The notes beneath the pieces were generated by a model, which worked only from the letters and a program-made list of their open reading frames with translations, was not told where the DNA came from and ran no database searches. A DNA stretch of 64,000 bases from Diacronema lutheri (taxonomy: Eukaryota; Haptophyta; Pavlovophyceae; Pavlovales; Pavlovaceae), in NCBI GenBank assembly GCA_019448385.1, contig JAGTXO010000007.1, positions 1-64,000 on the forward strand, given 5' to 3'. Shown here piece after piece: positions 407-30,339 of this stretch. The position numbers and the translations under genes are program-made. The first letter of the stretch is position 1, and every line of letters starts with the position of its first letter.

Positions 407-3083
407 TCAACGCCGGCCGCGCTTCGGCCCGCGCGCGCTGCCGCCGCCGGCACTGGCGCTGGCAGCTCCGCGGGCGGGGGTGCGGGCGCGAGAGCCGCCG
501 CCGCCACCGCCGCCGCGCCCGCCGCCGTCGTCGCCACCGCCGTCGCCGCCGCCGCCTCCCCCGCCGTCATCGTCGTCGTCGCCGCCGCCGCCTCCGTCGC
601 CGTCGCCGTCGCCGTCGCCCTCGCCGCCGCCGCCGTCGCCGCTGCCATCGTCGTCGTCGTCGTCGTCGCCCTCGTCGTCGCCCTCGTCGTCGCCGTCGCA
701 CTCGTCGTCGCAGTCGTCGCCCTCGCCGTGCACCATGCGCTCCTCACGCTCCCACACCTCGCCGCGCGCCCACCAGGCGAGCACGAGGGCAAAGCGCTCA
801 GGCGTCGACGTGGTGTCGCGCCCGGCCGCGTGCGCCGCCATGTCGTGCACGTCGTAGAAGATGTTGCGCGCGGCGTTGTAGTCGCGGTGCACGGGCTTCT
901 TGCCGCCGTTGCACGCCGGGCAGATGACGAGCGCGTGCACCGTGCGCGTGCCGCCCTTGCCACGGGCAGGCGCGGGTTCTGCGCGAGCTCCGCGCCGCAG
1001 CGCTGCAGCCTGCCGCCCTTGGCGAGCCGCGGCATCGAGCAGTGCATCGACGTGTACGCTCGGGCACGAAGACGGCCGCGACGGCCGCGCCGCCGCAGCT
1101 CGCGCAGCAGCCCCACCTGGAAGGCGGGCGGCGCGCCCTTGGGCTGCGCGCCCTTGTGGTCGCGCAGCCACTTGCCCACGCACACGAGCAGCCGGTCGCG
1201 CGTCACGCCGTCGACACAGTGCGCCGCGATGAGCGCCTCGGCGACGCGCGCCGCGTTGGACCGCCCGCCGCTGTCGCGCCGCCAGCGCTCCTTCCGGCGC
1301 GCCGGCGCGTCGTACACGTGCTCGGCGGCGCGCTCGCGCACCCGCGCGCTCTCGCGGGTGGAAGGCGTGGAACTCGCCCTCGCCGAGCACCTTGGCGCTG
1401 TGGCGCCTCGCCAAGCCGCGCCTCGTCCCGCCTCCACGCTGAACTCCTCGCCGCGCCCGTCGGTGCGCACGCGCCGCCGCGCCGCGTTGGTCTTGGCCGT
1501 CTCGGCGCGCAAAGCCCGCGGCGCGCGCGCGCGCGCGCTGCGTGAACTGCCGCCAGACGGCCGCCCGCCCGACGTGCGCAGAGTAGGTGGTGATGTTGCC
1601 CATGTTCGGGTCGGCCGCGACGACGACCGCCGCCTCGACGTCGATCGCCCGCCGCAGCTCGGAGCCGAGCGCGACGGCGATGCGCCCGTCCGGCCGGCGC
1701 CAGCGGTGCAGGACGCCCGAGCCGCCGGCCGGCGCCTGCGCCCTTCGGCACGAGGACGGTCCCGACGGCGTGCACGGCGACGCCATCTGTCACCACCGAC
1801 TTGACGGGCTGCCGGCCCGGGAGCGGCACGCGCGGCAGCGGCGCGAGGCCAACCCACGAGCGCCGCGCGTGCCACGGCAGATCGGCCGGCGGCCGCTCGC
1901 GCCCGGCGTAGTCGAAGACGCGGTTGGAGATGTCGAAGCGCGTCGCAAAGACCGCGTACCTGACGCGCACGTCCGACATCGGCGGGGTGTTGCCGTTTGT
2001 GCCTGTCCACTTGATCGGCTCGCCATCGTGGTCGCGCAGGTCCAGCGCCTTGAGCCGCGCGCGCAGCTCCTTGCGCTCGTCATCCGAAAGCGTCACCCAG
2101 ATGGCGCTCGCGGCGAGGCGCACGTTGCGCGGCACCTGCGCGCAGCGCGCGGCGCGCGAGCGCGCGGGCGCGTGACCAACCTGGCCGCGGGGCGGCGCGC
2201 ACGGCGGCGGCGCGCGCGCTTGGGCGCTCGGCGGCGGCAGCGGCAGCCACGCCTCGCGCGCACATTGTGCGTGCGCAGCGGCGCCACATTGTACCGCGGC
2301 GGCCGTCCGGTCAGCTGCGTGTGGATGTGCGCGAGCCGGCAGAGCAGCGCCTGCCCCTCGGCCACGTGCTGCAGGGTGCGGATCTGCACGAGGAAGTAGC
2401 GCGTCGTGTGCCGGTCGTAGTTCCACCTTTTCGTGGGCGTGCACTTGTAGTCGATCTTGTGGAGGACCATGTCGGGCAGGTGGCGGTCGAGCGCGGCGGG
2501 GCAGCCGACGCGCGCGCCCCTCCACGTCGCCGCGCAGCAGCCGCTCGCACAGCTCGCGCACGCGCGCGTTTCGCTGCATCTCGGGCAGCGCGACGAGCGC
2601 CTCGTCGCGCTCGACTGCCGCGCGGACGACGTCGCGGAGCAGCCCGTTCACGACGCGCGATGGATGCATCAGGCACGCGGTGGACACCTGCGTCGCCTCC
2701 GCCTCGAGGATCTCCGTGAGGCCCACCGCGCAGACGGGCTGGACGCCCTCGGCCATCTCGCCGACGGCGCGCGCCGTCGCCGCCTTGGTCTGCGCGGCGG
2801 CTTGCTCGGCGGGCTTGCCTCGGGGCGCTGCACCGTACGTGCTCTCGTCCTTGTGCCAGCCGATGGCCGAGAAGATCGCACGGACGGTTCCCTTGTCCAT
2901 CGTGGTCGACGTGTGCACGCTGGTCGACGGGCCGCCCGACGCCGCGCCGACGGCCTGCGCGCTCGCCACCGCAGCCTCGTCGCGCACCACCTTGTTGATG
3001 ACGCGGTACGCCTGTGTCGTGAGCCTGTGCACGGCCGCCGCGATGCGCCGCAGCTCCTTCCGCGCACCGGGCTGCGCCGTCAC
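407..3083 (-). CDS. Fanzor (eukaryotic TnpB/IS605 OrfB-like RNA-guided nuclease), frame-disrupted
   Basis: Fanzors are RuvC-fold, RNA-guided DNA nucleases related to TnpB, usually carried by eukaryotic mobile elements. Three parts of the signature are visible. A RuvC-I-like stretch with ADPNMGNITTYS lies near 1,583-1,620. The YTSMHCS box lies near 1,040-1,060. The C-terminal CPACNGG...HRDYNAARNIF box, with the RuvC-III aspartate, lies near 853-915. Upstream, MVLHKIDYKC and the start of the ORF supply the N-terminal region. The tail is strongly acidic (Asp/Gly run, 474-720) and ends in a basic KRGRR. Coding moves between frames at least three times, for example at a GGGG run near 2,510 and near 960, so the gene is decayed or contains sequencing indels. 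The first codon at 3,083 is GTG; the true start is unknown and may lie upstream. The RuvC-II glutamate could not be placed. The stop of the upstream ORF overlaps this start. Confidence 0.8.
474..720. repeat. GC-rich trinucleotide repeat encoding the acidic Fanzor tail
   Basis: Interspersed GTC/GCC/CTC trinucleotides read on the minus strand as an Asp/Gly/Glu-rich tail. The repeat is inside the nuclease reading frame rather than after it. Low-complexity length variation is expected here. Confidence 0.7.
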
Positions 3084-6000
3084 CGCCTGCGGCCCCGCGT
3101 GAGCGTCGAGCGCTTGACCACGAAGCCCGGGAGCACGCTGACGCGCGTGCGCGCCGTCGCGCCGCCGGCGGCGCGCGCGCTCGGCGCAGCGGGCTCGTCC
3201 ACGCGCGCGCGCTCGACGCCGCGCGCGCGGGGAACGCTCGGCGCGCGCGCGCCCGCGGCGTCGCGCGCGCTCGCGGCGGCACCCGCCGCGGCGCGCTTGC
3301 CCGCGGCGCCCGACTCGCCGTGCGCGCGAAGCGGCGCCGACGCCAATGCCGACGCCGCGCCCGCGCCGCCGCTGCCGCTGCCCGATACGCCCGCGCGCCG
3401 CTTCTGCTCGTCGCGCGTCTTGCGGAACTGGGCGACGAGGTCGCTGCTCACGTTGGCCTCAGGCTCCCACGTGTCGGCGCTCTCGTCGTAGCCCCGCCAC
3501 CTGATCCGGAACTGGAACGTCACCTTCTTGCCCGCCTTGCGGCGCTCGTCGACGACCGCCTCGACCTCGTACGTGCGCGCCTCCTCGTCGACGCTCGCGC
3601 CCGCCGCGCTCGCGCCCGTGTCCGGCCACCCAGCGACCGTGCCGCCCAGCCTCTCGGCGGCCGCGCGCAGCTGCCGCTCGCGCTGGGCGGCCGCGGCGCC
3701 TCGCGCGACCAGCGCGGGCAGCATGCCCGCGCCGCCCGCGAGGCCGTGCGCGCCGACGCTGGCGGTCATCAGCGCGTCGAGGCACGCGAACGTTGCGAGC
3801 GCACGCGCGCCATCGTCGCCGCCGCGCGGCTGCGAGCGCACGACGGGCGATGGCCGCGGCTCCCCCTCGGCCGCGAGCAGCGGCCAGATCGCACTGGCCA
3901 GCGCGACGGCATGCGCGCCGACCGCGACGGCCACGTCCGCGTCGAGCGGCGCAAAGTCGTAGCGCACGAGCGCGGCCGGGCGCGAGTCGTCCGTCGGCCG
4001 GTCGGCGACGAGCAGCCCGACCGGGCGCGGCGGCTCGCCGGACGGCGCGGCGACGGGCACGCAGAGGAGCACGACGAGCAGGCGCGGCGTGCCGCCGAGC
4101 AGCGCGCGCGCGGCATCCGCCCCGTCGGCTCCGCCGCGCGCGGGCCGCGGCGAGCAGCTCGGCCGCGCGCGTCGGGCCCAGCGCCGTGCGCGCGTCCTTG
4201 CGCGCGCGTGCGCGGGCCGTGTACGCGGCGCAGGCGTCGTCGAGCACCGCCGCGCTGGGCGCGGTGCCAGTCGTCGCCCACGCGCGCAGCGCGTCGCGCA
4301 CCCGCGTGACGATCGCCTGGTCGACTGCCGCCTCGCCGGCAGCGTGCGCCGGCGCGCACGCCGGCGGTGCGGCGGCAGGCGCGAGCGCGGGCGCGCCGTC
4401 GGCGCCGTCAACGCCGACGGCGCCGTCGGCGCGCCGCCACGCGAGCTTCGCCTCGATCTGCTGCCGGACGGCGTGGCAGTGCCGGTCGATGCCGCGCGCG
4501 TCGTCGAGCGCGGCCAGCGCGTCCTCAGCGGCGGGACGGCCGCTCGCGTCCGCGACGGCCTGCAGGCAGAGCAGCGCGGCCGCACGCGCGTTGCACGCGC
4601 TCTGCGGCTCGGGCGCGAGCGCGAGCCCGAGCTCGAGCGGCGACGCGCCTCGCGCCGCGGCGATCGCGTCCATCAGCACGTCCAACCGCTGCACCAGCGC
4701 CCTGTGCGCGTCGCGCGGCGCGCCCGTCGACGGCGCGCGCGAGCGCGTCGCCAGGAGCCCGAGCGCGCGCGCCGGCGCGCCCGCCGGCGTGTGCAGCACG
4801 AGCAGCGCCGCGCCCGCCAAGCTCGCGTTGCGCGTGACGAGCGCGAAGATGCGCGTCGCCTCGTGCGCGCCCACCGACGCCCAGATCGCAGCGCGATCGG
4901 CGTCCGTCTGCGCGTCGCACAGGTCGCGCACGTCGTCCGGCGCGAGCAGCGCGCCGCCGCCGGCGGAGCGCGCGACGATCGCCCGCGCCTCCGCCACGAA
5001 GACGGCCTGCGGCAGGTCGGCGTGGCGCGCGTCGACGATGGCGCGCGTCGCGTGCACGCCGAGCTCCACGCCGCGGTAGAAGGCGCGCGCGTTGGCCGCG
5101 CGCGCGTGCGCCGGCCGTCCGTCCGCGTTGCGCCTCGCGCGCGCCTGCTTGCTCGTGCGCGCGAGGCCGTCGCGTGGCGGTGGCGGCAGCGTGGCGAGGA
5201 AGCGCGCGGCGGGCGGCGGCGCGCGCACGCCGCGCTGCCGCCGTGCGATGGCCGCGAGCCGCCGGCCCGCCGCGCTGCCGCCCGCGCCGACGTGCTGCCG
5301 GCGGCCGAGCGCCGCCGGTGGCGGCGGCGGCGGCGGCGCGGCGGCGGGCGGCGGCGCGACGGCGGGCGGCGGCGCGGCGGCGGGCGGCGGCGCGGCGGTG
5401 GGCGGCGGCGCGGCGGCGGGCGGCAGCGGCGGCGGCGCGGCGGCGACGGCAGCACCAGTCGGCTTGTCCGCCCACGCACCCGAGACGCTGTCCCAGGCCT
5501 TGCCCGGTGGCGCGCGCCCACGCGGCCGCGGGTGGCGGGCTCGAGCGGCGGGGGGCGGGCGGCCGGCGCGCCAGTCGAAGACAGGTGCAACCGTGGCGGC
5601 AGGCGCCGAGTGCAGCGCGTCGGTCACAGAGCGCGTGGTGCGCGCGGCGACCGTGGCGCGCATGGCGGGCGGGCGGTGAGCAGCGCCCGCCGGCGCGCCG
5701 GCGGGCGCGGCAGCCGGCGCGCCGGCGGGCGCGGCCGCCTCGAGCCCGGCGGAGGCGCCGCGCTTGCGCTTGCGCGTGCCGCCGCGCGTGCGCCTGCGCG
5801 CGCGCCCGCCGCGCGCCCGTGCGGCCTGCGCGTCGCCAGCCGCGTCGCCGGCCGCGTCGCCGCGCCGCACGTAGACGATCGCGAACGCCTCCTCGCCGGT
5901 CCCGTCGACGCCGCCGCGCGCGCGGCGTAGGACCGACCGCCACTGCAGCCGCCGCGCGCGGCCGGGCTCGCACGCAAACCAGCGCCCACCGCGCCTGACG

Positions 6001-9000
6001 ACGGCCACAAAGTCGTCGTCGCGCCGCCCGCGCCGGCGCGTGCGCAGCAGCACGCACTGCACGTCGAGCCAGCCCTCGTGCCAGTCGGCCGTGCTGGGGG
6101 CGACGCGAATCGACTGCGGGAGCTCGACGCCAAAGCCGGCGAGGCGCACGATGTGCGCGACGATGACGCTCGAAATGGCGGGGGCGCTCGACGGGTCGTC
6201 CGCTGCAGCGAGCACCGCCTCGCCCCAGTGCTCACGCGTGACGCAATCCGCGTCCTCGACGTGCACGTGCGCCACGCTCGCGCCGAGCTGGTGCAGCAAC
6301 GCGCAGATGTCGGCGTCGACCGTCCTCTCCTCCTCGGCCGCCTCGGCCGTGCCGCGGGCGGCGGCGTCGCCCGCCGGCTGCCCGAGGTACGCGATCGCCC
6401 GCTCGACGGCCGCGCCCTCCGCACGCGCTGCGCTGTCGATCGCCGCATTGCCGACGGGCGCGCGCAGCGCCGCGATCGCGTCTTGCAACGCCGTCGCGTC
6501 GCCCGTCGCCGCCGCCGCCGTCACCGCCGCCGCGCTCGCGGTGCCGTGCGCGACGGCGTGCAGCGCGGCGGCGCGCGCGGCGGGGATGCGCCCGTCCAGC
6601 GCGAGCACGAGCGGCGGCCCGGCCGGCGTCTGCTGCCGCCGGTGCCGCCGGCTCGCAGCCGGGTGGTCGGCGCGCGCGCGCTCGAGCCGCGCGCGCCGCT
6701 CGACGACGCGCGCCCAGAAGGCCTGCACCCTCGGCTGCGCGAATGCAAGCCAGCCGGCGCCGCGCGTCACGACGTGCACGACGATCCGGTCCTCGTGCCT
6801 GAGGTACTGCACGTAGAGCGCTTTGCTCACGCCGAGGACGTGCATGCCGAGCTGCAGCTGATCGCGGTGCGGCTGCGGCGGCCCGTCCTCGTGCGCCGTG
6901 GCGCCCGCCTTGGTGAGCGTCTTCACCTCGACGAGGACCTGCTCGTTGTTTTCGGGGAGGATGGCGAGCCCGTCCGGCGAGAAGGCGAACGGCGCGCTCT
7001 TGTCGTGCGGGTCCGCACGCACCATCGGCAGGTTGCACACGACGGTGATGCCGTACGCGGCCGCCAGCTTGCGCAGCGCGACGGCCTCGCCGAGGATGCC
7101 CGCGGTCGTCGCCTTGGTCCGCACCTCGCGCCGCCGCCGGTGCACGTACTCGTCGGTGAGCGTCTCGTGCGCGACGCCGGCGTTGTCGTTCACGACGTCG
7201 CCAACCTTGCTGCCCGTGACCTCCTCCCATCGCTCGTCGTGCCAGCGCGGGCTGCGCTGCGCGGGCGCGCCCGCGCCGACGGCGTCGAGCACGCGGCGCA
7301 GCGCTGTGCCGTCGGGCGCAGCAGGCACGCGCGCGCGGTCCTGGGCCTCGCGAGCGTCGAGGACGCAGCCCGTAGTGGAATGTTGGGGTAGGTCGAGCTT
7401 GCTCGCCTCGCCGTAGCGGCTCTCCAGCTGGCGCGGTGCGTCGGCAGGGCCGCCGTCCGTGCGCGCACCCGACGCGCCCGCCAGTGCACGGGGCGCAGCG
7501 TCCGAGGCGCCCGCCGCGCCCGCGCCGCCGCCAATCGCGCCAGCGCACGCGCGCGCCGCGACCTGCGGACGGCCAGCCGCAGGGACCTCGTCCGCTCGGC
7601 CGGCCGCTGCGTCGGCCGTCCGCTTGGCCACCTCGCGCACGTCTCCGAGCGCGAGCGTGGCTGGCGCCGTCCAGCTCCCGTTGCGTTTGTCCCAAAATTT
7701 GAGCAGCCCGCCAAGGAAGGGCGTGCCCGTCGGGCGGTCCTCGGGCACCTCCGCCAGGATCGCGTCGACGCGCAGCGCGGCCGCCACATCGCAGAACGCG
7801 CGCGCGGCGCGCGCCATCCGCTCGGCGCGCGCGCCGCCGTCGTCCGCCGCGCGGCGGATGGCGTGGCTCACGTGCGCGACGCGGAGCGAGACGACGGCGT
7901 GCGCCGGCGCGTCGGCGCCCGTGCCGAGCGTGTGCCGCCGGATGGCCAGCTGCCCATCGCCCATGCGCGGCGGCAGCGACGCGCACGCCGCGACGGTCGT
8001 CGTGCCGGCCGCGCTGTCGCACAGCCAGCTCGCCTCGCCGCCGCCCGCAAACTCAAAGGTCGCGAAGCCCTCGCGGCCGAAAAGCGCGACGAAGTGGTCG
8101 AGCACCGCCTTGTTGATCGCGCGCGCCGCCGGCCGCGTCGATGCGCCGCGGGCAGCGCCACCCGCCGCGCCGCGCGCATCGCTGCACGTCGCAGGGCAGG
8201 TGCAGCCGGACGCGCGCACGCCGTCCGACCGCGTCCGCGGCAGCTCGAGCTCGCGCACCTTGGGGCAGAACCAGAGCGGGTTGGACGCCTCGAGGCACAG
8301 CACGACGAGCCGCCCGTCCGTGCCGGCCAGCGCGCGCGCGTCGCGCAGCAGCTCGACGGCGAGCTCGGACGTCGCCGCGTGCACCGCCGGCTCGCCCGTC
8401 GCGCGGTCGGGCGGGAAGAGGCCGCCGCCGACGAGCGGGCTGGGGCAGCGGCCGAGCATCACGAGCAGCGGCGGCGGCGGCGTCTGCGGCGCCTGCTGCC
8501 CGACCGCAGCCGCCGTCAGCCCGGCCAGGTCGGAGCTCGTGCGGAGGGCCTTGAGCGCGACGCGCGAGCCGGTGCCCGCCTGCTCGGAAAACGTGGCGAG
8601 CATGGCGCACGTGCTCGCCCTCGCGCCGCACTGCCAGCTGACGCGCGCGAGGAGGCCTTCCAGCGTGTCGTTTTCGCGCGGCCGCGTGACCGCGTCGAGC
8701 GCCGCCGGGCCGAGCTGGAGGCTGCCGGGCGTGACGCACAGCACCGCCTCGTGGTAGGCGCGCAGCAGCTCCCTCGGCAGCTGCTCGGCGGGCGTCGCCG
8801 CCTGCTCGCCCACCCACCGTACACCGTGGCCGCCGTCGCCCGCGCCCGCGAGCCGGACCGCCGGCCCGCCCGTGATCGCCGAGGTCGGTGGCGTGCCGAG
8901 CGCGTCGACGAGCGCGCGCACGGGCGCGACACGCCTGCGCGCAGCGTCCGCGCCGACGGCGAGCGCGGCGATCTGAGCGCCCTCCCATGCGCGCTCCCTC

Positions 9001-10953
9001 GCGTCGTCCCGCGCGGCCGCCGGCGCGGCGCCCGGCCGCGCGCCGGGCGGCACCGCGCACGCCGCCGCGACGACCTCCGCGCGCGCGCCGGCGGCGTCGG
9101 GCGCGTGCAGCTGCGCGAGCGCGCCAAAGAGCGCGGCGGCCGAGCGGTAGCGGCCGTGCGCCGCGACGAGCGCGTAGAGCACGCGCAGCGCGGCCACGCC
9201 CGCCTGGTCGGGCGCGTCGCCAGCGATGCGCCCGACCTCCCACGTGCGCGTGGGCGGCGGGCTGCCGTCGGCCGGGTCCGGACGCAGCGCCCACGCGCGC
9301 TCGACGATCGCGTTGAACACGTCGCGCGCGGCGCCCTCGTCAAACTCGGCGGCGCCCGCCGCGTGCGCGCACCACCCGTGCACGCGCGACGTGGGCGCAT
9401 CCACGGCGCGCTGCACGACGAGCACCGCCGGCCGGTCGACGCAGCCGAGGCTCACCGCCGCGTGCTTGCCCTCGAGCAGCGCCGCCGCCGCAGCCTCGAC
9501 CAAGGCGTCACCAGGCGCGTCGCCGACGACGACGGCACAGCCGTCGCCGTACTCGGCCTGCATCGCGGCGACGCACGACGCGACAAAGTCGCCGCCCGCG
9601 GCCGCCGCGTGTCGCGCCGCCAGCATCCGGCGCGCGATGGCAAGCCAGACGTACTCGGCCGGCGCGCGCGCGGCGCGCGCGCGAGGCGCGCCGGCCGCGC
9701 CGCGTGCGCCAGCGCGTGCGCCTCCAGCGGCCGCAACGGCCGAGGCGGCTGGAGCGGCGGTGAGCGTGCGCCGCGCGCGCTTCGCCGGCCGCGCGATGGG
9801 CGATGCACCCGCCGTCGCACCGCCCGCAGCAGCCGGTGCGGCCGCCACAGCGCCCGCCGCGACGCCACTCGTCACGACGCCCGTGGCGGGCGGCGCGGCG
9901 TCGGACGCGGCCGCCTCGACGGGCGTCGCGCAACTACCGCCAGCGGTCGCGGACGCGCCCGGCGACGCGTCGGCGAGGAGGTGGCGCAGCACGCCGCGCG
10001 CGAGCGCGACTCGCACGGCGAGCGTCAGCGCGCGCAGGCGGTCGGAAGGCGAGGCGTCGCGCTCGGCGTCGGCGGACGTGGCGGCAGCAGGCGGGGCGGC
10101 GGGCGGCGCGGCGGCGGACTGGGCGGCCGCCGGCGCAACCTCGTCGGCCTTGGCCAGCCAGACGAGCCCGGCGACTGCGAGCACGACGCTGTACGCGCCG
10201 ACATCGTCACCCGCAACGCGCGCCAGCCGGGCGTGGGCGTCGGCCTCGGACACGGCGACGCGGAAGAGCACGTCGTCGCGGGCAGCTTGCTCGGCAAACT
10301 GACGCAGCTGCTTGGCCATCGTCACGCCGGCGACGCACGCCTCGCCCGCCTCTGCCTCGACCTGCTCGTCCTGGCCGATGGCGGACGCGCCGGCCTCGGC
10401 GCCACCGTCGAGTGTCCGGCGGCGCTCGAGGGCAAAGCCACGCACACAGACGCTCTGGAGGCCGCCGAGCGCGCCCGCCTTCTCGTGCAGCGCGCACGAC
10501 AGCTCGACCACCGAGTCCACGCGCGTCGCGGCGGCGCCCCCCCGCTCGCCGCGCGTGGGCGCGCGCACGACGAACACCGTGAATTGCGCGCGCTTCGCCG
10601 CGCGCGCCGACGCGCACGCGTGCTTCAGGAGCCGGCAAAGCGCGGGCCTTTGCGCCGCTGCGCCCCGCGTGCACAGCAGCAGTTGGCCGCGCTCGTCGCC
10701 CAGCTCCTGCTCGACGGCGGCCTCGAGCGCGTCGTCCGTCAAATCGCCGTGCTCCGTCGAGGCGAGCGCGCGCGCAGCCGCGAGCGCCAGCTCGCCTGCG
10801 CCCGCGCGCCGCCGGCGGCGCGCACCGGCGGGCGCGTGCGGCGCCGACGCGTGTGACGACGCCGCCGCGTCCGCGCGCGCACACGCGGCGCGCAACGCCT
10901 CACGCGCCGAGGCGGCCGCGCGCGCCCTGGGCGCGAGCCTCAAGAACGTGCGC

Positions 10954-11034
<81 letters not shown>

Positions 11035-18500: not shown

Positions 18501-19290
18501 CGGCGAGCCGCGCGGCCTCGGCGAGCCGCGCGGCCTCGCGGGTGAACGGGCCGAAGCGCCTGGCGCGGTCGCCGAGCAGAGCGCCGATGGCGGCGCGGAG
18601 CGTGCGCGCGCGGGTCTCCTCGTACGCGGCCGTCGTGAGGCGCGCGAGGCGCGCGTCCAAAGCCTTCTTGATGTCGACAAGGACACTCGCGCGGCGGCCG
18701 TAGAGCGTCGATGCGCTCGCCACGACCTCGGCCGCGACTGTTGCCGCGGCGAAGCAACACGCGGCCCCACTCTGCGGGGGCGCCTTGAAGGCATCGATGG
18801 GCGGCGCTGTTCTGCCGATGCGCTGCGCAAGCTTCTTGATGAGCACGCCGGCCGCCGTGGCGTACGCCGATTCGCCGTTGCCCAAGGTGCGCGAATCGGC
18901 GAGCAGGGCGAGCGCGGCGCCGGGCGGCGCGCCGCGCTGCGCGGGCGGCGCGAGGAGCAGGTACGCCGCCGTCCAGTGCACGAGGCCGCTGGACGCGCGG
19001 AGGCAGAGCGGTAGCACGACCACGAGCACCTGCCCAAACCGGTCCGCATCCGCGCATGCTTTGCGCAGGTTGCGCAGCGCCACCTTGAGCGCATGCTGCG
19101 AGCACCCCGTGTCGCCCACCCTAACCCTGCTCGTGCCGAAATCCGCGTAACGCAGCAGGGCGATGAGGCAAGTGGATGGGACCACGTGGGGGTGGGTATC
19201 TCCCGGCGACAGAATGGTGCTGAGGGCCAGCGAGAAACTGTCCGAGCCGCCCCGCCCGCCGGGCAAAGCGTCCTTCACGGAGTCCTCCAT
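15271..19290 (-). CDS. C48/ULP1-like cysteine protease with PD-(D/E)XK-like region and a TM segment
   Basis: This 1,339-codon ORF has an ATG start at 19,290. The N-terminal 190 residues carry a C48-type order of catalytic residues: His105 (VHWTAAYLLL), Asp132 (LLADSRT), Gln173 and Cys178 (PPQSGAACC). C48 proteases cleave SUMO or ubiquitin-like conjugates, and related domains occur in many mobile elements and large DNA viruses. Residues about 490-660 resemble a YqaJ/restriction-like fold (GGSADAVF, then VIGEVTTV), with Asp575 and Glu589. The usual lysine of the ExK motif is Thr591, so activity is doubtful. A hydrophobic segment near residues 1,090-1,120 may span a membrane. It is followed by a charged coiled coil that resembles the start of the next ORF. 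It overlaps that ORF by about 280 bases in another frame, so the two could be exons or broken halves of one gene. Confidence 0.65.
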   Translation of the reverse strand: MEDSVKDALPGGRGGSDSFSLALSTILSPGDTHPHVVPSTCLIALLRYADFGTSRVRVGDTGCSQHALKVALRNLRKACADADRFGQVLVVVLPLCLRASSGLVHWTAAYLLLAPPAQRGAPPGAALALLADSRTLGNGESAYATAAGVLIKKLAQRIGRTAPPIDAFKAPPQSGAACCFAAATVAAEVVASASTLYGRRASVLVDIKKALDARLARLTTAAYEETRARTLRAAIGALLGDRARRFGPFTREAARLAEAARLAEACDASVGGSAPDGLLQAVEAALRAPDDRIARTAALDALTGAAGRALSTAARPRGAAAPRPPSRAPPPRAPQRRAASAWGPRPFSSLGGGEGDGDDGDATTADDGEGAEDGDDDPAGAAAAAVATGTAATSAVAAGAAPTSPAAADGGGSAPLERRCVYTAPDEGDADARVYDAKDPEQLKAGRARPRANSGRAPAVVDTLFAHATGTIVTRQRTEGVTGAGMHHLAAPTQGAGYGTVVRAELGEPGFAGTTWHMTSGVENQPRAVRAAARAYAHDGWGGVYNAHEDFAAFEGLPRLAAPESLAAIAGGSADAVFCWRSGRSVIGEVTTVHFNGDRAAAIDHARALRVRPDWRSQPRIYEAACGAEGTVLLVWVVPDRHKNPRLDWAPILVVIHLPADPDWLARATPAIAKARREVEDGRARAEARGVPQHLAYTLSPRFRGTAPRGAARVPPRLGASDAREARALAALEPALMFAPAWRRAVRAASRAPGSGAAAVERALARLHNALEPDDESAPESTRVAPLAAALEQSAGWPAGTARMAASVTKGPGVGDGAGGDEVTKVEETAKTSGDGCTGTPPLRPAARAAGAADDGGAAVVAGVEGERDALAKTGAGGCDDDAREPLSAGKPGALAAAATVGGLGELVGSLCAWLARGAAGGAIAATSPGTAARGANGTPQRAEPPAAGDPVAPHARVAAAAPLAGSAAAPSSAARDAQRGVAGVDAAAHAHARDGRRAARRMREQEGAVHRAFRMSLWRDATFVEFVEKLRPDGGAQLLAREPTRRAAAVLCELARGRDGASGAAGLLHEMRAADARAREAAKAAEAAQLAHGTLRIVATVALGGAVFAGMSALVVACAARTATGALFGARRPRAAARGADDALGTLQRAEPPPADKGKRRRARANDDPVDAARKAVGKAEGNCRKAARRLHLAALGEEEAQQRVLDAEAAEQLARSREPAGGWVGSARARARARPAARAPVDWRARSAERRASSVTCAPPRPCPSRAGAPCGPAAATGALWHARRCRRGSAPRARGAAPGETGCGVRQGQRAADGGGVAQRDALRHRGARAAWRAGG

Positions 19291-21194
19291 CTGCAGACTG
19301 TGGGCACGTCAGTGTCCGGATGGCGGCCCGGATGATACTTTGGAGAATTTACATGATGCCCTGGAGAATGCCCCGCTCTCCCACAACCAGGACCCGCCAG
19401 CGCGCCGAGCCTACTCGTTTGCCCGCGCCGCCTCTCTTTGCGCGCCCGAGCGCGGCCTCCGAGCGCGGCCAACGTCCTCCGGGGGCGTGCATCGTGGCTG
19501 CTCGGAGGGGCTGCGACGCGGCGAAAGCTCGCTGCGCGGCCGCAACGTGAGCGCGCGCGCGCGGCCGCGCGCCGGCCTGCGCTGCTCTGCACGGCCGCGC
19601 GCCGGCCTGCGCAGCCTCGTCGCGCAGCGTGAGCGCGAGCGCGCGCGAGGTGAGCTCGGCGGATGGGTGCGCGGCGGCGTTGGCGGCGGGTGCGGCGGCA
19701 GGCTGGGCGGCGGGTTTGGACGGAGAGTGTCGGGGAAGAACGGGGCGCATCCTGGCTGGGAGTTGGACGGCGCCCACCACGCGCTGGCGGATCCTGGTTG
19801 CCACCACCACCCCCCCCCCCCCCCCCGGAGACGAGGACCAGGGGCATGGCCGACTCGCTGCGCCGCACAGCGCGCGGCGCGCGGCATGCTGCGCGACCTC
19901 AAGCACATCCAGCCGCGCTCCGCCCACGCAACGCGCGCAATGCCGCGTTGCACTGCAGGTGTGCACGTGCGGCTCTCACGCGCACTGTGTTGCACGAACG
20001 GCATCACGCCACCGAGCTGCGTCCGGACCACGCGCCGCGCGCAGGCGACCACACAGGGGCGCGCCGCGCCGCGCGTGCGCGCCCTCGCAACCGTTGCAGC
20101 ACGCTCTGCCTTGCACTGCGCCGAGCCGCCGCGCGCTGTGCGCGTGCATGCAGGGCGCACGCGTGCGACGAAGCGCGCGCGCGGCGAGGCGCGCGGGCGG
20201 CTCGCTGCGCGGGCGGCAACGCGCCCAGCTGCGCCCAGGCCAGGCGCGCGCCCGCGAGTGCCACCGGGACGCACTGCCCCCGCCGGGGTCGCCGCGCGCT
20301 CTGTGTGTGCGCTCGCGCGCTGCGAGCGCGGCGGAACGTTCGTGCATGGCGCGAAGAGCGCGGCACCCGAAGACGGCTGCCCCGAGCCCGCGCCGGGTGG
20401 CAGCGAGCGGCGGCACCTCCTCGGCGAGCCCGCCCCGCGCCTTCCCCTCCACGTGGCGTTTTGAGGCAGACGGACACGCGCCCACACTGCGACTGGGCAC
20501 GCTGCTCGAGGCAGACACGCACCCAACGCGCGCGCACCACGCGCCCGCGTCGGCGGGCCGGTGTGAACGAGCGAGAGCTCGGTGTCGCCAACGGGGGCAC
20601 GGGCGCGACTTCGGTCCGCCTCTCGACGGACGCAGGCGACGCTGCCGGGAACTTCCCCGACGCCTGCACATCCAGGGCTTCGAGGTACAGAGCTGGGCAA
20701 CAGTGCCGCTCGTCACCGATGAGGCGGCCAAGCTCGCTATCCTTGCTGCCCTCGGCTCCACCAAACAGCCGGGCGACCCAACGGTTCGTGATCGCCTGGC
20801 CGCCAGGTGCGAACCGCGCCCGTGCAAGCGCTTCACCCGCATTCTCCGCCCCGCTGCGGACGTCCGCCTGCCGGCCGCGAACACGGCCGGTGCGCGTTGC
20901 CGCCTGGCCCAACACGAAAACCCGCCCGCCCCCGAGGCCGCAGGTCCTACCTGCCCAAGCGCAGCCCAACGGCACGCAGACAGCCCGCCTTGGCAACCGA
21001 CTCGTGCGCGAGCGCTCCGCCCTCCACAAGAGCCTGCCCCACGCCACCGCCGACGCGGAGCCAGCGCAGCCGACGCCCCTCCGCGACGCTCGCGCCGCAA
21101 GGCGCAAGGGCCCCGGCGAGACGGCGTCAACCAAGCCCGCCGCTGGCACAGCGCCGGCACCCGGAGCCCACCCCAAGCCCCCGCGCACGCCTCG

Positions 21195-21230
<36 letters not shown>
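21195..21230. repeat. Poly-C tract, about 36 bases
   Basis: An uninterrupted C run in a gene-free stretch. Tracts like this can be miscounted in assemblies. Confidence 0.9.
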
Positions 21231-21231
<1 letters not shown>

Positions 21232-21633
21232 ATCGGCGGACCGATTGCGTTTTGGTGCGCCAGGCTCAATGCGCCATCGCAGTGGCGGGCCCGCAGACGC
21301 AGACGCTGACATGCCCAACGCTGGGCACTGAGGCCGCAGGCCGGCCCTCCTGGACCTGGCGGGCGAGCTGCCCGCGCAGCGGCCACGCGAGCCTCGCACT
21401 GACCGTGGCGGTCGCTGCCACCGTGATAGCTGCGGGTGCGGCGGCCTTGGCCCCAACCCCATCATCCGTCTTCATCCCCGCCCTGCTCGCGCTCGCGGCC
21501 TACGTCGGCAATCCCTGCACCGGGATCCGCCCCGCGAAGTCCACACAAGACTTATCCGTGCTGCACGCCAGCCGCGCGCGCCGACGCGCGCCGCTCCCAC
21601 ACGCTCACCTCCGTTTCCGCGGGCGGCCCAACG

Positions 21634-21673
<40 letters not shown>

Positions 21674-21690
21674 CCCCCCCCCCCCCCCCC
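21634..21690. repeat. Poly-C tract, about 57 bases with one T
   Basis: A C run interrupted once near 21,671, lying in the gene-free stretch between the two protease genes. Confidence 0.9.
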
Positions 21691-22233
21691 GGCAGGCGGC
21701 CATCGAGCCGCATTAGCACACCCGCCCGGGGCCTCCCGCCGCACCCGCAGCGGCTCGGCGCCTTGAATCCTCCCGTCCCCCGGGGTGAGGCCTTCAACCC
21801 GGGCCCAGCGCGCTCCGACTGCCTCACGCGCGCCAGCGCCAACCTCGGCGGCATGGTAGACCCCGAGCGAAAAGCCGCACTTCTCGCCGTCCTCGTCAGG
21901 CGCAAGTACGTTATCCTGCTCCTACTGCCGACGCGGCTCCCGCGCGCGCGGACTACTACGCCGGGCAGATCGCCGCAGACGCACGTGAGTGCACACGTGC
22001 GGACAAGGCGCACACGCTCGACGTCCAGTTAGCGCACGTGCACGTGCGCGCCACTGGTCACATTTGAGCGTCCGTGCTCGCCCACAGCGTCGCCATCCAC
22101 AAGATGCGCGCTGGAGCCATCCAAGCAGGGCTCTGCCTGCTCGGCTTCCGCAAGGCAATTTGGGCCGCGGACAGCGGACAGCGGACGGCGTGCGCGTGCG
22201 AGGTGCGAAAGGAGGAAGAAGGTAGGGAGAGTT

Positions 22234-22281
<48 letters not shown>
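22234..22281. repeat. (TG)n followed by poly-G
   Basis: A short TG microsatellite runs directly into 34 G. It lies 3' of the USP-like gene on the minus strand. Confidence 0.9.
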
Positions 22282-22286
<5 letters not shown>

Positions 22287-22687
22287 CGGCCGCCGGAGAC
22301 GAGGACGCACTCACCGCTGTTGGCAATGCGCGCGTCACGGAGACAACTTGGCGGGCCTCGCACGCAGCTGGGCCGATCGCCGCCGTAGAGATGTCTGCAG
22401 CCGTCTCCGCGATGCCGATCGTCGCATCTGTTGGCACCGCTGCCATCTGCCGCACCCGCGGCCAGGCTGCCGGCAAGGTCGGCGCGTCGGGCTCCGAGCT
22501 CGGCCACGCAGGCGATGCGGCCGACGGCGGTGACGCTGAGCCCAGCGCCGGGTCCAACGGCTCCACGTCGAGCCGGCTGTGAACGAGCATGCTCGCACCA
22601 CTTGCCCACGCCAGCGCGTCGGACTCAGGCACGTTGTAGATCTGCGCGGGCAACGCGCGTGCGTGCGGCAGGCGCGCGCGCGAGCTT

Positions 22688-23710
22688 TCAGGCCACGCGC
22701 GCGTGCCGCGCGGGAGGACGGGGCGGTCGCGGCTGCGCTCGACCGCCGGTCGCGGCACCGAGCGACCGTGCGCGCCGCCGCACGTTGTAGTCGTCGCACG
22801 GAAACCAAGCCTCGTTGCGGAGCACGATGGCGACAAGGTGCCCGCTCATCGGCCCCTCGCCCACGTGCACCACGCCGGCGACGGGGAGGTGGTCGCGCCC
22901 GCCGAGCAGCAGCCGCGGCGCGCACACGAGCGCGCGGTTGTTCTTGCACTGCGAGCCATTGCCGCGCGTCGTGCGCGGCGCCTCGACAGCAATGCTGGCT
23001 GGCGTGAGCACGCCCGAGTGGCCCGCGTTCGTGTGGCGATCCCGCGGCGGCCCAGCGGCGCCCCCCAGAGCGTGTGCAAGCGCGCGCGCCGCATCGCCGC
23101 CGACGCTGACGAGTACGGCGATGCCCTCGCCGGCCTCTGAAGGCACGGCGATCTGCTCGAGCACTGGCCCGACGCGTGTGTCGGCTTCAAAGGCCGCAGC
23201 GAGCCCGGGCACTCGGCCGAGCAGCAACCGGAAGAACTCAGCGGCATCCTGCGGCGTCCTTCGCGCGCCACGGCCCGAGATGACGTCGATGACGGACACA
23301 AGACACAGCCGTGTCGGCGCCCTGGTGTCCTCGATCAGCGTGCCAAAGTCCCGAAAACGCGCCCTCTCGACGCTGTTGGCACGGCGCGAAGCGGAGCGAA
23401 GCATCGCACGGAGCATGTTCAGGGCGAAGAGCGATTGCATAAGGACGGTCGTGTAGCACGCGCTGCCCTCGTTTTTCGCGCCTGCGCCGCGCCGCGCAGC
23501 GCCGGGTGTGCGGGGTGCGCACGCACGGTTTGCGGCGGGATGGAGGGAGGCTGGCTGGGCGCGCGCCGAGCCCGGCAAGCCGTGCAGGCGCTCACCACGC
23601 GGCACGCCGGGCACTCTCACCGGCCACATCGGGCCGTCAAACGCGTCTTCCACAGGCTGCCGACCGACGACGTAAAACTTGCTCAAGGCGCCGCGCCGTG
23701 CACGCGCCAT
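22688..23710 (-). CDS. USP/UCH-type ubiquitin-specific protease-like protein
   Basis: The frame runs open from 24,100, but the first ATG followed by conserved-looking sequence is at 23,710 (MARARRGALSKFYVVGRQ). All three landmarks of the USP (C19) family are present in order: the Cys box NEGSACYTTVLMQSL (about 23,430-23,475), the QDAxEF box TPQDAAEFFRLLL (about 23,210-23,256), and the His box SGHLVAIVLRNEAWFPCDDY (about 22,795-22,850). USPs remove ubiquitin from proteins. At about 340 residues this is a minimal catalytic domain with no obvious accessory domain. It lies between the helicase and the C48-like proteases on the same strand, which suggests a shared role in countering host ubiquitin or SUMO marking; that role is inference. 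The C-terminus after the His box loses similarity and may be frame-shifted. Confidence 0.7.
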   Translation of the reverse strand: MARARRGALSKFYVVGRQPVEDAFDGPMWPVRVPGVPRGERLHGLPGSARAQPASLHPAANRACAPRTPGAARRGAGAKNEGSACYTTVLMQSLFALNMLRAMLRSASRRANSVERARFRDFGTLIEDTRAPTRLCLVSVIDVISGRGARRTPQDAAEFFRLLLGRVPGLAAAFEADTRVGPVLEQIAVPSEAGEGIAVLVSVGGDAARALAHALGGAAGPPRDRHTNAGHSGVLTPASIAVEAPRTTRGNGSQCKNNRALVCAPRLLLGGRDHLPVAGVVHVGEGPMSGHLVAIVLRNEAWFPCDDYNVRRRARSLGAATGGRAQPRPPRPPARHARVA

Positions 23711-25179
23711 GCGCGCGCTGTTGCGGGCTGCGCAGCAGGGACGACGGGGGAATTGGCGAGCGAGGGTTGGGCGCAGATCAGCGTGGTGGCGCGGCAAGAC
23801 GAGCGCGCGCCGGGCGCCTGGCGCGGAGGCGCCCCGCGCGAGGACGCGAGCCGCTTCTCGCACCGGACGGGCGCCCACGCGCAAGCCGGCTTTCGAGGGC
23901 TGGTGGATGGTGGCAGATGCCGAAACGGACACATGGAATGATGCGTCGGCGGCGCGAGCGCGGGACGATCTTGCCCGGGCAATTTTGCGCACGCTGCCAG
24001 CGCGCGTATGCGTGCGCATGCAGCGGGCGGCGCGCACGTTGCGCGTGACGGGGCGCCGAGCGGCACACCGGCGGGGACGCGCTCGCCGCTGCCGTGGCAT
24101 CGTACGCTGCCTGCGTGCTGGCCCGCACGCACGTTGCCGGCGCGAGGGGACGGCGAGTGCGCCTCGGCCGAACAGGCGCGAACGTTACGCCCGAGCGCGT
24201 GGCCGGGCCCCGCCGACTGCACGCAGCGCCGGCCCAGGCGCGCATCCGCCCGACGCGGATTTGGACGACGCATCGACCGGCACGCCGAGCGTCTGCGCCC
24301 GCCTCGCGGCCGGTCGCGCCGGCCCCTCTTCGGCCCGAGGCCGCACGTCCGCCGCGCGCCGCTTTGGCGCGCGGCGCGGCGCTCCCGGAACGCGCATGGC
24401 ACACGCGCGGTGCGCGGGCACGCCCGCAACGCGCCATTCCAGCGCGAGCAGTTCGGCAAGCTTGCAGCGCGCGAGCAGCCGGGCATGTGCCGCGGAAACA
24501 CAGTTCGCTGTGTGCGCCGGCCGCGACGACACGGCGTAGCGGCGCGAGGCTGGCCGCCGGGGCCACGGGCGTACTGCCGTGGCGCGACGCCATGGTATGA
24601 GCAATAATTTCATCGGGGGGTGGGGTGGGGGGGGGGGGGGGGGGGGCGCGTTGTGCGCACTTGGCGCGCGAGTAGTGCGAGTGGCGGGCGAGCCTCGTCG
24701 CCCACGGAGCCCGCCCCCGGCTCGGCGGCGCGCCGCCTGCTCGCCGGGTCGCGCACCGCCGTCGCCGCCGCTGCGCACTTGCCCAGCTTGCCGGCAGGCG
24801 GCAGGCGGCGGCGACGGCGGCGGCGGCGGCTGCGGCTGCGGCGCGAGCGCGACGCCGGGCGGCGGCAGCGCCGACGGCACGCGCGCAGCGGCGACCCACG
24901 CGGCGGCGGGCAGCGCGCCAGCGTGAGGCCCCTGCGCGCCGGCCGCATTGGCGCCGCCCTGCGCGCCCTAGAAGGGCGCGCAGGTACGCGGGCCGGTCGC
25001 GCGGCGCGCGGTGCTGGCGAGCACCCGACGGCTGCGCGTCGGCGCGAGCGGCGCGGCGGGCGTCGCGCCGGCGGGTGCTGGCCAGCACCGCGCGCCGGCG
25101 GCGCGCCCGCCGCCAGCGCGCCGCCCGCCGCCGGCGCCGCGCGCGCCGTCCGCGCCCGCCGCCACCGCGCGCCGCCGCC
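23711..25179. other. Spacer between USP-like and helicase genes
   Basis: No conserved domain was recognised on either strand. A G-rich homopolymer lies at 24,615-24,646. The minus-strand open frames are Ala/Arg-rich and uninformative. The far right edge holds the Ala-rich C-terminus of the helicase. Confidence 0.4.
24615..24646. repeat. Poly-G tract with two T interruptions
   Basis: Runs of 6, 4 and about 20 G, the first two separated by single T bases. On the minus strand it is a pyrimidine tract. Confidence 0.85.
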
Positions 25180-27615
25180 GCGCATTCGCGCGCGGCGGCG
25201 ACGGCGGCCGCGGCGAGCGCCGCCGCCGCCGCCTCGCCACCGCTGACCGCGCGGAGCACCTCTTTGAAGACGACGCTGCGCGTCACGAGGTCCGCGCCGA
25301 GCGCAAAGCGGACGCGCGACGTGTGCCCGACGCGCGAAGCGGCCACGTGGAGCTGGCCGTGCGTGAAGCACGGCTCGGCGAGCCACACGCCCGCGCACCC
25401 GAGCGCTTGCCCCTGCGCCTCGTTACGCCGGCCGCACCGGGGAACTGGCGGCGCATCCGCACAAGCGCGAACGTGCCGTCGTCGGGCGAGTGGTGGTCGA
25501 CACGCGCGACGAGCACGGTGCTGTCGCGCCCGGCGGCCGCGCCGGGGCGTGCGCACTCGAGCAGCCGGCCGCCGGCGCGCACGCCGCGCACGATCAGCCG
25601 CGTGCCGCCGCACAGCCCCTCGCCGGGCGAGAGGTTGCGCGGCAGCATCACCACCATCCCGGGCTTCAGGTCGAGGACGCGGTGCGGCATCTGCGCGTGC
25701 TCGAGCGAGTCGAGGAATTCGACCGACGCCCGCGCAATCTGCTTGCCCGCCCCGTCGTCGCGCCAGCTCGTCCGCCGACGCGCACCTCGCCGCCGCGCCC
25801 GGGAAGCGGCCGATCGCCAGCCAGTTGATCCGCGCCACGTCCGTCTGCTTGGCGCAGAGCACCGCGCGGTCGCACAGCGAGCCGTCGTCGGTCCAACACG
25901 TCGCGCCGTGGACAAAGTCGTCACGAGCTCCGTCGGGTAGGCCGAGCCCACGCGGATGGGGACGCCGCCGACGGCCTCGGGCAGCTGCACGGGATCGAGC
26001 GGGAATGCGCCGGGCATGGCCCCGGCCGCCGGCACCGCCGCGGGAACGGCGCCGTCGCCGGGGCTGCGCAGCAGCTCCGCCCACTCGCCCGCGCCGAGCG
26101 CGTCGCCCGTGTCGCGCGCCGCGCTCGAGGCGCGAACGTTCTCGACCAAGGCGTGCTGCCGATCGTGCTGCCACGGCGCCGAGTACTTGAGGCAGGAGCG
26201 CACGATCTGCGCGCGCGAGCCGCGCCGCACCACCGGCAAGCACTGGCGAAAGTCGCCGGCGAGCAGCAGCGTCTCGCCGCCGAAGCGCTCGTCGACGCCC
26301 GTCACGTCGCGCAAACACCGATCAGGCGAGTCGAGGTGGCACCGCGTCTGCATCGGCGCCTCGTCCCACACGACCAGCCGCCGCGGCGGCCAGGGAGCGC
26401 CCGCGCTCGGAGCGCGGCACGCCATTGAACGGCTTGCCCGTCGGAGTCGGCACCGCCGGGCACCTTGAAGGTCGAGTGGAAGGTGCGGCCGTCGGGCAGC
26501 AGCGTGGCGGCGACGCCCGAGGACGCGCCCACGACGACCGCGTGCCCATCCGCGCGCACGGCGGCGATAATGGCGCGCTCGACGAACGTCTTGCCCGTTC
26601 CGCCCGGCGCGTCGCAAAGATGCAGCCGGTTGCCCACGCCGCGCAGCGCCGATTTGACGACCGCGCCGTGGAGCGCGCACTGCTGGCCGCCATCGGCCAT
26701 CGCCGCGCGCGCCGCCGCCGCGCTCGCAGCCCGCTCGGCGCGATGGTAGCCCTGCGCGCGCGCGAGCTCGCGCCCGCCCGGCCCGGCCGGCGCGCGCGCC
26801 GTGCGCAGACCGGCCACCGCCGCGAGCGCCGCCGCGCGCTCGCGCTCGTCGGGCACGTACAGCCCCGTGGAGTCGAACGTGTCGGCCCAGGCGGGCACGC
26901 CGTACGAGGCGAAGGCGTCCGAGCCGGGCTGCGGCCGCTGCTCGGCGCGCTTCAGGAGCATGACCCCGCACACGTTCCACTTGGTGCCAAACATCGAGCC
27001 CGTGAGCCCCGTGTAGACGCGGTCGAGCTGCGTGGCGATGGCGCAGACGTCCTCGTGCCGGATCTCGTCGACCGGTTCGCGCCGCGCGTCGACGAGCGGC
27101 ACGACGCGCTCGGAGCCCGCCCACGTGAACGTGCGCGTCGACATGTTCAGCCGCGTGTGCGCGAGCGTGTCGTCCTCGTACTTGGGCTTGACGGCGGGCG
27201 AGAGCTTGCCGCGCACCTCCTCCTTCGAGAGGCCGCGCGTGTTGAGCAGCTCCTTCTGGCGCGCGTGCACCGTCTCGACGCGCTGATCGTCGATGGCGCG
27301 CAGGGCGCCAAAGTAGGCGTCCATCTGCGCGAGCGGCGCGCCTTCAATCGGCAGCTCCTTGTCGGTCACGCCGGCCGTGTACGCCGCCTTGTCGACGTCC
27401 GTCGGCCCGTACATGGTGCCAAAGTTGCCGTCGCCCGTGAGCTCGGGCCAGTCGACGACGCAGGGCGGCGAGACGAAGGCGAGCGCGCGGCGCGACGGCC
27501 CGTAGCTCAGCTTGTCGACCGTGCGCGCCTGCTCGCTCGGCTTGACCGGCCGCGTGCTCACGATCTCGCAGTTGACGAGCGCCGCGTCGAAGGCGCGCAG
27601 GTCGATGGCGGCCAT
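25180..27615 (-). CDS. PIF1/Helitron-type superfamily 1 helicase with novel N-terminal region, frame-disrupted
   Basis: PIF1-family helicases unwind DNA 5' to 3' and power Helitrons and some large viruses. The ATG at 27,615 (MAAIDLRAFDAALV) opens a first frame with about 300 residues of unassigned sequence, then Walker A GGTGKT and GASSGVAATLL. Other helicase motifs follow in other frames: VVWDEAPM (Walker B), LLAGDFRQCLPVV, AVLCAKQTDVARINW, VLDLKPGMVVMLPRNLS, NEAQGQAL and FTHGQLHVAASRVG (motif VI). The coding signal changes frame near 26.4, 25.93, 25.76 and 25.43 kb, so as sequenced it cannot encode one protein without corrections or introns. No HUH Rep motif of canonical Helitrons precedes it. 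The N-terminal region may be an ssDNA-binding module, but that is a guess from its polar, beta-rich look. It starts divergently from a small plus-strand ORF. Confidence 0.75.
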
Positions 27616-27620
27616 GGTCG

Positions 27621-28091: not shown

Positions 28092-28201
28092 GGCGCGCAC
28101 GACGTCGCCCAGCCAGAGCAGCCCGGGGCGGGGCGAGTCCGGCTGCGCGGAGGTCCGGCTCGAGCGGGCGGGCGCCATGCTCTGAGGCGCCGCCGCTTTC
28201 T

Positions 28202-30306: not shown

Positions 30307-30339
<33 letters not shown>

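Follow-up and report, generated by a model that had tools for sequence, protein, structure and literature searches.

The window analyzed here comprises the first 64 kb of contig C5 (JAGTXO010000007.1) of the haptophyte Diacronema lutheri, and it was compared with the whole genome assembly of 43,492,796 bases in 103 contigs. Positions 1-31058 of the window almost certainly constitute one copy of a single 31.06-kb mobile DNA element. The original prediction, made from the letters of the window, had placed here a block of genes on one strand between 407 and 27615, containing a PIF1 helicase, a USP-like protease, two C48-like proteases, a YqaJ exonuclease, a chromodomain, and a Fanzor nuclease, and had proposed it as a large element. 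The gene block is confirmed for PIF1, the USP-like protease, the chromodomain, YqaJ, and Fanzor, but not for the C48 proteases, and complete copies elsewhere in the genome move its limits to 1-31058. The main features are the following.

1..31058, no strand: whole mobile element, aligned end to end with copies on contigs C71, C85, and C9; contig C5 starts at the left terminus
1..10, minus strand: left terminus, the 3' end on the Fanzor strand, CCATCTATA(C), at 224 genomic places
31049..31058, minus strand: right terminus, the 5' end on the Fanzor strand, CTATATACGG, at 220 genomic places
3462..15611, minus strand: giant open reading frame (ORF), 4,050 amino acids in the window
6693..7268, minus strand: YqaJ/RecE-like exonuclease domain (phrog_434, E 5.6e-15)
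3419..3571, minus strand: chromodomain (PF00385, E 6.4e-13), upstream of Fanzor and in the same open frame in the intact copies
408..3140, minus strand: Fanzor part of the giant gene, its frame broken in the window and intact in C71, C85, and C9
2136..2263 (converted from C71, approximate), minus strand: probable GT-AG intron in the Fanzor part, joining two coding frames
1..407, minus strand: putative guide-RNA (omega/fRNA) region, by position only, between the Fanzor stop and the terminus
25169..27621, minus strand: PIF1 helicase gene, extended N-terminally by ∼310 amino acids without assigned fold; its coding segments change frame

The window sequence 1-31058 aligns unbroken to three other loci, with identities of 99.70% (C71), 99.72% (C85), and 99.16% (C9, a contig of 3,042,068 bases), and identity between the copies is lost within a few bases of the same positions at both ends. 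An additional copy on C40 matches the first 17.6 kb of the element, where that contig stops. The genome-wide counts of the two terminus patterns, with up to one mismatch allowed for the left one, compare with zero for a reversed control. A 261-residue piece surrounding the YqaJ domain is present in at least 146 genomic copies with 98 to 100% identity over the full query length, the Fanzor exon in at least 76 copies (99 to 100% identity, free of stops in all 76 listed), and the N-terminal piece of PIF1 in at least 107 copies (99 to 100% identity). These lists are lower bounds, with 146 of 239 first-look candidates scored for YqaJ, 76 of 455 for the Fanzor exon, and 107 of 236 for PIF1.

The genes also keep their distances. 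A listed PIF1 lies upstream on the same strand within 40 kb of 79 of the 146 listed YqaJ copies, and the spacing in these 79 pairs is 19.7 to 20.8 kb in 69, 14.8 to 15.7 kb in 8, 21.4 kb in one, and 1.4 kb in one; an opposite-strand PIF1 is listed within 40 kb on either side of only 2 of the 146. Listed YqaJ copies are found within 20 kb upstream of 55 of the 76 listed Fanzor exons, 28 at 6.2 kb and 27 at 5.3 kb, values that are read here as a single spacing measured from the low coordinates on two strands. All three genes are listed together at 32 loci or more. Because the genes recur at fixed spacing, the block is not a chance assembly, and because complete copies match over their whole length and have the same termini, separately inserted elements are ruled out. 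The element is a recurring unit with fixed ends whose nearly identical copies number well above 100, which bears out the single large element foreseen in the original prediction.

In the other complete copies, the giant ORF extends to 4,506 (C71), 4,507 (C85), and 4,513 (C9) amino acids with the frame open throughout, and in all three the order is YqaJ, chromodomain, and the likely Fanzor N terminus. The chromodomain, like PIF1 and the USP-like protease, is confirmed by Pfam on the minus strand (PF00385, PF05970, and PF00443). PIF1 is matched by PF05970 in two ORFs (E 1.9e-15 and 1.8e-24) and by Pif1_2B (E 6.2e-13). For YqaJ, the phrog_434 match supports the assignment, whereas the weaker profiles all remain under their own cut-offs (Pfam, E 0.029 with the whole ORF and 0.0011 with a piece; TIGR03033, E 9.3e-7). 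The acidic core contains the SPDGL and VEVK motifs, in agreement with a lambda-type exonuclease.

The Fanzor exon encodes 574 amino acids with the RuvC residues D175, E357, and D417, a TS pair, four cysteines, and R416-D417. The published Fanzor motif, D-X(125,275)-[TS][TS]-XX-C4-X(5,50)-RD (Bao and Jurka 2013), is present with gaps of 184 and 8 and with all four cysteines, the first two of which are unusually distant. The intact Fanzor exon of another copy (P0011) is matched by PF07282 with E 1.7e-6 and 28.5 bits against a cut-off of 26.3. The NCBIfam model guided_TnpB reaches 13.9 bits against a cut-off of 100. Since this model and PF01385 fail, the Fanzor assignment rests on PF07282 together with the published motif. 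Both failing profiles are TnpB models, by which Fanzors are often missed.

In the window itself, the Fanzor of the original prediction has a broken frame. Three window ORFs of this region show no match to a Fanzor profile; the ORF at 410-1789, outside that scan, shows the C-terminal motif. Compared with C71, the window copy contains 15 one-base insertions or deletions (indels) in its first 4.2 kb, and C71, C85, and C9 have none of them. The frame breaks are therefore read as probably reflecting unpolished sequence at the contig end. A Fanzor pseudogene was considered and excluded, as only one of the four copies, that at the contig end in the window, shows the breaks.

The Fanzor exon is probably spliced onto the giant frame. 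A stretch of 128 bases in C71 (L023, 1984-1857) starts with GT, ends with AG, and links the giant frame to the frame of the Fanzor exon. The translation of the giant ORF contains no methionine between the chromodomain and the likely Fanzor start, and a fused protein of ∼5,000 residues would result if translation begins at the first methionine. YqaJ, chromodomain, and Fanzor, originally listed as separate genes, appear instead to form one open frame with one spliced exon.

On the Fanzor strand, the element begins with CTATATACGG and ends with CCATCTATAC. The right junction consists of the flank, a C (46 of 53 flanks), and then TATATACGG, while the last four bases of the closing CCATCTATAC are conserved in 46 to 48 of 49 flanks. 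The first 60 and the last 150 bases have no inverted repeat of at least 7 nt in common. Thirty-two flank pairs were fetched, 28 of them with both flanks and four interrupted by contig ends. Direct repeats at the junctions measure 13 bp and 6 bp in two of the 28 pairs and 4 bp or less in the other 26; shuffled pairings give ∼0.3 of 28 with 6 bp or more, and the 6-bp repeat may be due to chance. Alignment of the copies yields common termini, and insertion takes place mostly without a target-site duplication (TSD) of more than 4 bp.

A cross-comparison of 53 right with 49 left flanks, out of 220 and 224, returns the same 13-bp pair, one 8-bp match, and two 7-bp matches, compared with ∼2.6 matches of 7 bp or more per round for shuffled letters. 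A comparison with wider offsets (33 by 29 flanks, without control) adds one 9-bp and one further 7-bp match. Scrambled flank pairing thus hides no target duplication of at least 7 bp; a shorter one, or a constant TATA, remains compatible with these data.

The right end shows a preference for a short, abundant repeat. Five of the 53 right flanks end 1 to 7 bases past AAGCGYCGTTA (four flanks) or the closely similar CGTTAGTA (one), always in the same direction, in a nonrandom set of flanks that stem largely from the first 100 listed places. The 14-base form of the repeat, ending in AAGCGYCGTTAGTM, has 877 exact copies in the genome (e.g., L034, 60-190). By chance, ∼0.005 occurrences would be expected for the 14-base form compared to three observed, and ∼0.012 for the looser form (5 matches in 109,550 background bases, both strands) compared to five observed. 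Three left flanks contain the repeat 11 to 26 bases away from the junction and in both directions. The 3' end of this repeat is a hot spot for the right end of the element.

Of the bases compared, 27 of 31,005 are different between C71 and C85, and 131 of 30,977 between C71 and C9. Because C71 and C85 are nearly identical, the spread of the element is recent. The divergence between C71 and C9 is patchy, high at 5 to 13 kb and at 28 kb and low in the Fanzor end and the PIF1 region, as expected from gene conversion or from copying by recombination. Indels in the coding part are net in frame, with 18, 33 (4+29), 24, and 6 bases in C9, 3 in C85, and 3 in the window past the first 4.2 kb. From 19.3 kb onward, 13 of 17 indels are out of frame (6 of 6 in C9, 5 of 6 in C85, and 2 of 5 in the window, with one at the very end excluded), and many of these right-part indels are situated in base runs. 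The in-frame indels lend moderate support to selection on the reading frame.

The explanation favored here, and considered probable, is that of a recently multiplied 31.06-kb element that may be copied in through DNA repair with Fanzor as a guided helper. The copying mechanism as such is put forward tentatively and with some doubt. Here, the element would be copied rather than merely moved: PIF1 would unwind it, and the YqaJ exonuclease would yield single strands for annealing. Fanzor would take up a guide RNA transcribed from the left end of the element into the flank and cut matching DNA, upon which repair would copy the element in, while the chromodomain might steer cutting to marked chromatin. 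The end-joining activity may reside in a divergent domain within the giant proteins. Cutting by Fanzor or TnpB guided by flank sequence has been proposed (PMC10432273), and the 3' end of Fanzor lies ∼0.4 kb from the left terminus, a position that fits the logic of the obligate mobile element-guided activity (OMEGA) systems. A further-reaching proposal, which is speculative and rather unlikely, is that the element founds a new superfamily of giant DNA transposons whose RNA-guided nuclease would belong to the transposition machine instead of being cargo. A protein of ∼5,000 amino acids would join resection (YqaJ), chromatin reading, and guided cutting, cut-and-copy integration would take place without a classical transposase, and the position immediately 3' of the repeat AAGCGYCGTTAG would be one of the favored targets.

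Several results weigh against this explanation. The ORFs scanned yielded no recognizable transposase, recombinase, HUH Rep, polymerase, or capsid. At the profile level, this agrees with the original prediction, which had likewise recognized no polymerase, capsid, HUH Rep, or DDE or tyrosine recombinase, and it leaves the joining step unexplained; neither a reverse transcriptase nor an integrase profile was found in these ORFs. OrfB_IS605 (PF01385) has no match anywhere in the genome, and the supposed N-terminal part of Fanzor, assigned by eye, has no profile match up to E 10. RNA folding at the left end is not exceptional (z -1.57 and -0.25), and Rfam shows no match in window positions 1-31100. 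Splicing and guide RNA are predictions from the genome sequence. The giant ORF shows no sign of purifying selection between C71 and C9 by the ratio of nonsynonymous to synonymous substitution rates (dN/dS), which is 1.29, compared to 1.32 and 0.79 in two wrong frames, and 4 of the 17 right-part indels are multiples of three. The copies at C39:323467 and C45:2194 have a common right flank and different left flanks, a sign of mis-joining or duplication, and some pairing of left and right flanks may therefore be wrong.

The rival that survives best, although it is judged unlikely, is a very large Helitron- or Helitron2-like rolling-circle transposon whose HUH Rep would be too divergent for recognition or would act in trans. 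PIF1-type helicases occur in the Helitron2 class, and the only clear match of the element's PIF1 in the PDB is the Helitron transposase Helraiser (E 2.6e-6; four queries were searched, and the other three returned nothing). Palindromes lie near both ends of the element. The Helitron2 elements CRe-1, 2, and 3 of Chlamydomonas (Bao and Jurka 2013) share with it the algal host, Fanzor1 as cargo, hairpins near both ends, and insertion without TSD or, in some cases, with TSDs of ∼7 to 19 bp, a pattern comparable to the prevailing absence of TSDs and the rare 13- and 6-bp repeats found here, the latter only mildly beyond shuffles. In contrast, the CRe elements are nonautonomous Helitrons, whereas the D. 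lutheri element has 31 kb, an apparent Fanzor-chromodomain-exonuclease fusion, and no recognizable Rep. Helitron_like_N (PF14214) is absent from the ORFs scanned, and its sole match in the genome is on C63, a contig without a copy among those listed. As the two ends lack an inverted repeat of at least 7 nt, they have no asymmetric terminal inverted repeat (ATIR; 8 to 15 bp) of the Helitron2 type. The ends CTATATACGG and CCATCTATAC differ from the 5'-TC and CTRR-3' of Helitron1, the 3' hairpin lies ∼27 nt from the end, and the 5' end is preceded by C and not by an A or T-rich sequence.

Quite unlikely is an element mobilized by a tyrosine or serine recombinase, such as a Crypton, a Starship, or an IS607-like element, with CTATA as a short core. 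Starships and Cryptons are large cargo elements, and Cryptons, like IS605 and IS607, insert without TSD, as the element described here mostly does. CTATA is present at both of its ends, most flank pairs are without TSD, and published Fanzors are located in Crypton and IS607 elements. The OMEGA/TnpB systems of IS200/605 and IS607 and the Fanzors SpuFz1 and GtFz1 resemble it in having a RuvC nuclease with all catalytic residues and a gene end near the element end. However, the ORFs scanned show no recombinase profile, neither a tyrosine recombinase captain nor a TnpA partner is recognized in the element, the guide RNA is putative, and the nuclease would form the tail of a predicted protein of ∼5,000 amino acids. 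The C lies outside the repeat in the few junctions within known repeats, which does not clearly place the core in the target. All 16 tyrosine recombinase matches in the genome are outside the copies placed among those listed, as compared by eye. Four of them lie ∼1.5 to 11 kb outside a right terminus (C4:48529, C17:194914, C69:95472, and C50:195629), possibly by chance.

A giant element related to the PHIS DDE transposons, a group that includes Spy and ISL2EU, is very unlikely. ISL2EU has a YqaJ ORF and Spy inserts without TSD (PMC4482050), and the ends of the D. lutheri element form a short imperfect inverted repeat (CTATATACGG and GTATAGATGG, 7 of 10 positions). The recognized DDE, the size, and the target of these transposons are all different: autonomous ISL2EU elements average ∼4.8 kb and are reported only from animals (PMC4482050), and neither an AT nor an AAATTT target is found here. 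No ORF scanned shows a DDE profile, with limits of E 0.1, 0.01, and 1 across the ORF scans and 10 on ten segments, limits that divergent domains could still escape.

An endogenized virus or virus-derived plasmid is highly improbable. YqaJ, PIF1, and Ulp1-like proteins occur in the large DNA viruses of algae. Fanzor, too, is known from viruses (Bao and Jurka 2013). The ORFs scanned contain no credible match to the PolB, capsid, or packaging ATPase of Polintons and large DNA viruses, however, and only a portal-protein match with E 0.9; scans of viral contigs with four queries returned no relative, and the G+C content is like that of the host. Unrelated elements piled up by chance at a contig end, conceivable as every one of the genes is frequent by itself in mobile DNA, are already refuted by fixed spacing and common termini in many copies and retain practically no probability.

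The element is also set apart from the chromoviruses (Ty3/gypsy; PMC6338049), which likewise have a chromodomain in a protein of mobile DNA; in the D. lutheri element, an RNA-guided nuclease follows the chromodomain. Neither the combination of YqaJ with a chromodomain nor the Fanzor-chromodomain-exonuclease fusion was found in the literature searched, and the available part of PMC6338049 describes no fusion. Within that literature, the element is undescribed, as the original prediction had supposed, carries an unprecedented-looking Fanzor fusion, and could be assigned to no known transposon class.

Fanzors are proven RNA-guided nucleases, and the element bears on the open question of why transposons keep them. 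This very young element has at least 76 Fanzor exons of almost the same sequence in the genome; every copy is bordered by a different flank and would therefore, should the OMEGA logic apply, have a separate guide. The cut-and-copy idea becomes directly testable in this alga, and the fusion, if real, suggests a natural chromatin-targeted, resection-coupled editor.

The remaining features of the element are as follows.

15274..19308, minus strand: second large ORF of 1,345 amino acids with C48-like motif region 1 near 18694-19191; no credible profile match
11112..11744, minus strand: C48-like motif region 2, by eye, without profile support
22691..24184, minus strand: ORF with a USP/UCH-like peptidase exon (PF00443, E 4.3e-8, above cut-off)
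27744..28086, plus strand: coding-like segment with one membrane span by eye; codon score 32.4
28173..29059, no strand: nested palindrome of inverted units like miniature inverted-repeat transposable elements, with TGTAGGG repeats, kept in three other copies
29426..30491, plus strand: coding-like segments close to the right end, of uncertain frame, that may form one spliced gene

Decoding by codon usage, trained on the element's own ORFs, assigns minus-strand coding to most of 0.5 to 19.2 kb and of 25.2 to 27.6 kb; weaker calls appear elsewhere and on the plus strand, some of them antisense shadows. The named genes are all on the minus strand, but the coding-like plus-strand segments near the right end suggest that the one-strand arrangement of the original prediction may not extend over the whole element. 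The two C48-like proteases of that prediction have no Peptidase_C48 match in Pfam up to E 10 on the given segments, and only motifs of the H/D/Q/C type are visible by eye. The 1,345-amino-acid ORF also contains, at window positions 16939-17991, a stretch whose ADAVFCWRSGRSVIGEVTT motif looks by eye like a PD-(D/E)XK nuclease core and which has no profile match. Ten segments compared with Pfam and PHROG at E 10 gave nothing credible, and three ORFs of 29426..30491 show no Pfam match. An interrupted host gene at 27.7 to 28.1 kb was considered and excluded, as the plus-strand segment lies inside three other copies. The palindrome at 28173-29059 has a lower GC content and could be an origin or a captured element.

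Besides complete copies, the genome contains size variants. End positions paired by hand, from the first 100 places listed for each terminus, indicate copies of ∼31.0, 29.1, 26.5, 26.0, 21.5, 12.6, and 35.8 kb. A 21.5-kb copy and a 12.6-kb copy were each sampled with ten 100-base probes. Of the probes from the 21.5-kb copy, five show full identity to window sequence as far as 10 kb and one at 29.5 kb; another two align near 23.9 kb (92%) and 26.0 kb (95%), and the last two match nothing in the element. The 12.6-kb copy shows full identity to the window in all 10 probes, which skip from 7.3 to 26.8 kb.

The element is estimated to make up between ∼4% (69 copies of ∼27 kb) and ∼9% (146 YqaJ copies of ∼26 kb) of the genome; several percent of a genome published as streamlined would thus belong to it. 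The genome paper of D. lutheri NIVA-4/92 (PMC8379373) gives 103 contigs, 43.503 Mb, a longest contig of 3.042 Mb, 73.25% GC, and 22.9% repeats, with long terminal repeat elements and long interspersed nuclear elements at 36.5% of masked bases, and the word "transpos" is absent from its main text.

The element also seems to have broken the assembly at contig ends. It is present at 7 of 20 inspected contig ends (L163, L165, L168, L174, L175, L177, and L179), at the left terminus or near C/G runs; the 20 were not chosen at random, and some were already known to carry it. In the position lists, contigs ending at the left terminus outnumber those ending at the right. A telomeric element, suggested by the contig ends at the left terminus, was rejected: other contig ends carry telomere-like repeats, and 7 of 20 lie inside the element, which suggests assembly breaks. 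The telomere-like repeats (read at L160, L161, L164, L169, L170, L172, L173, and L178, each 1-120) differ between contig ends: C9 carries TAGGGG on either side, C30 starts with TTAGGG, C36 and C37 end in TAAGGG, and repeats of the TGAGGG type close C5 and C11 and open C36. Beyond the element, the window contains host-like sulfotransferase, JmjC/cupin, and EF-hand genes at 46442-47569 and 49777-53513.

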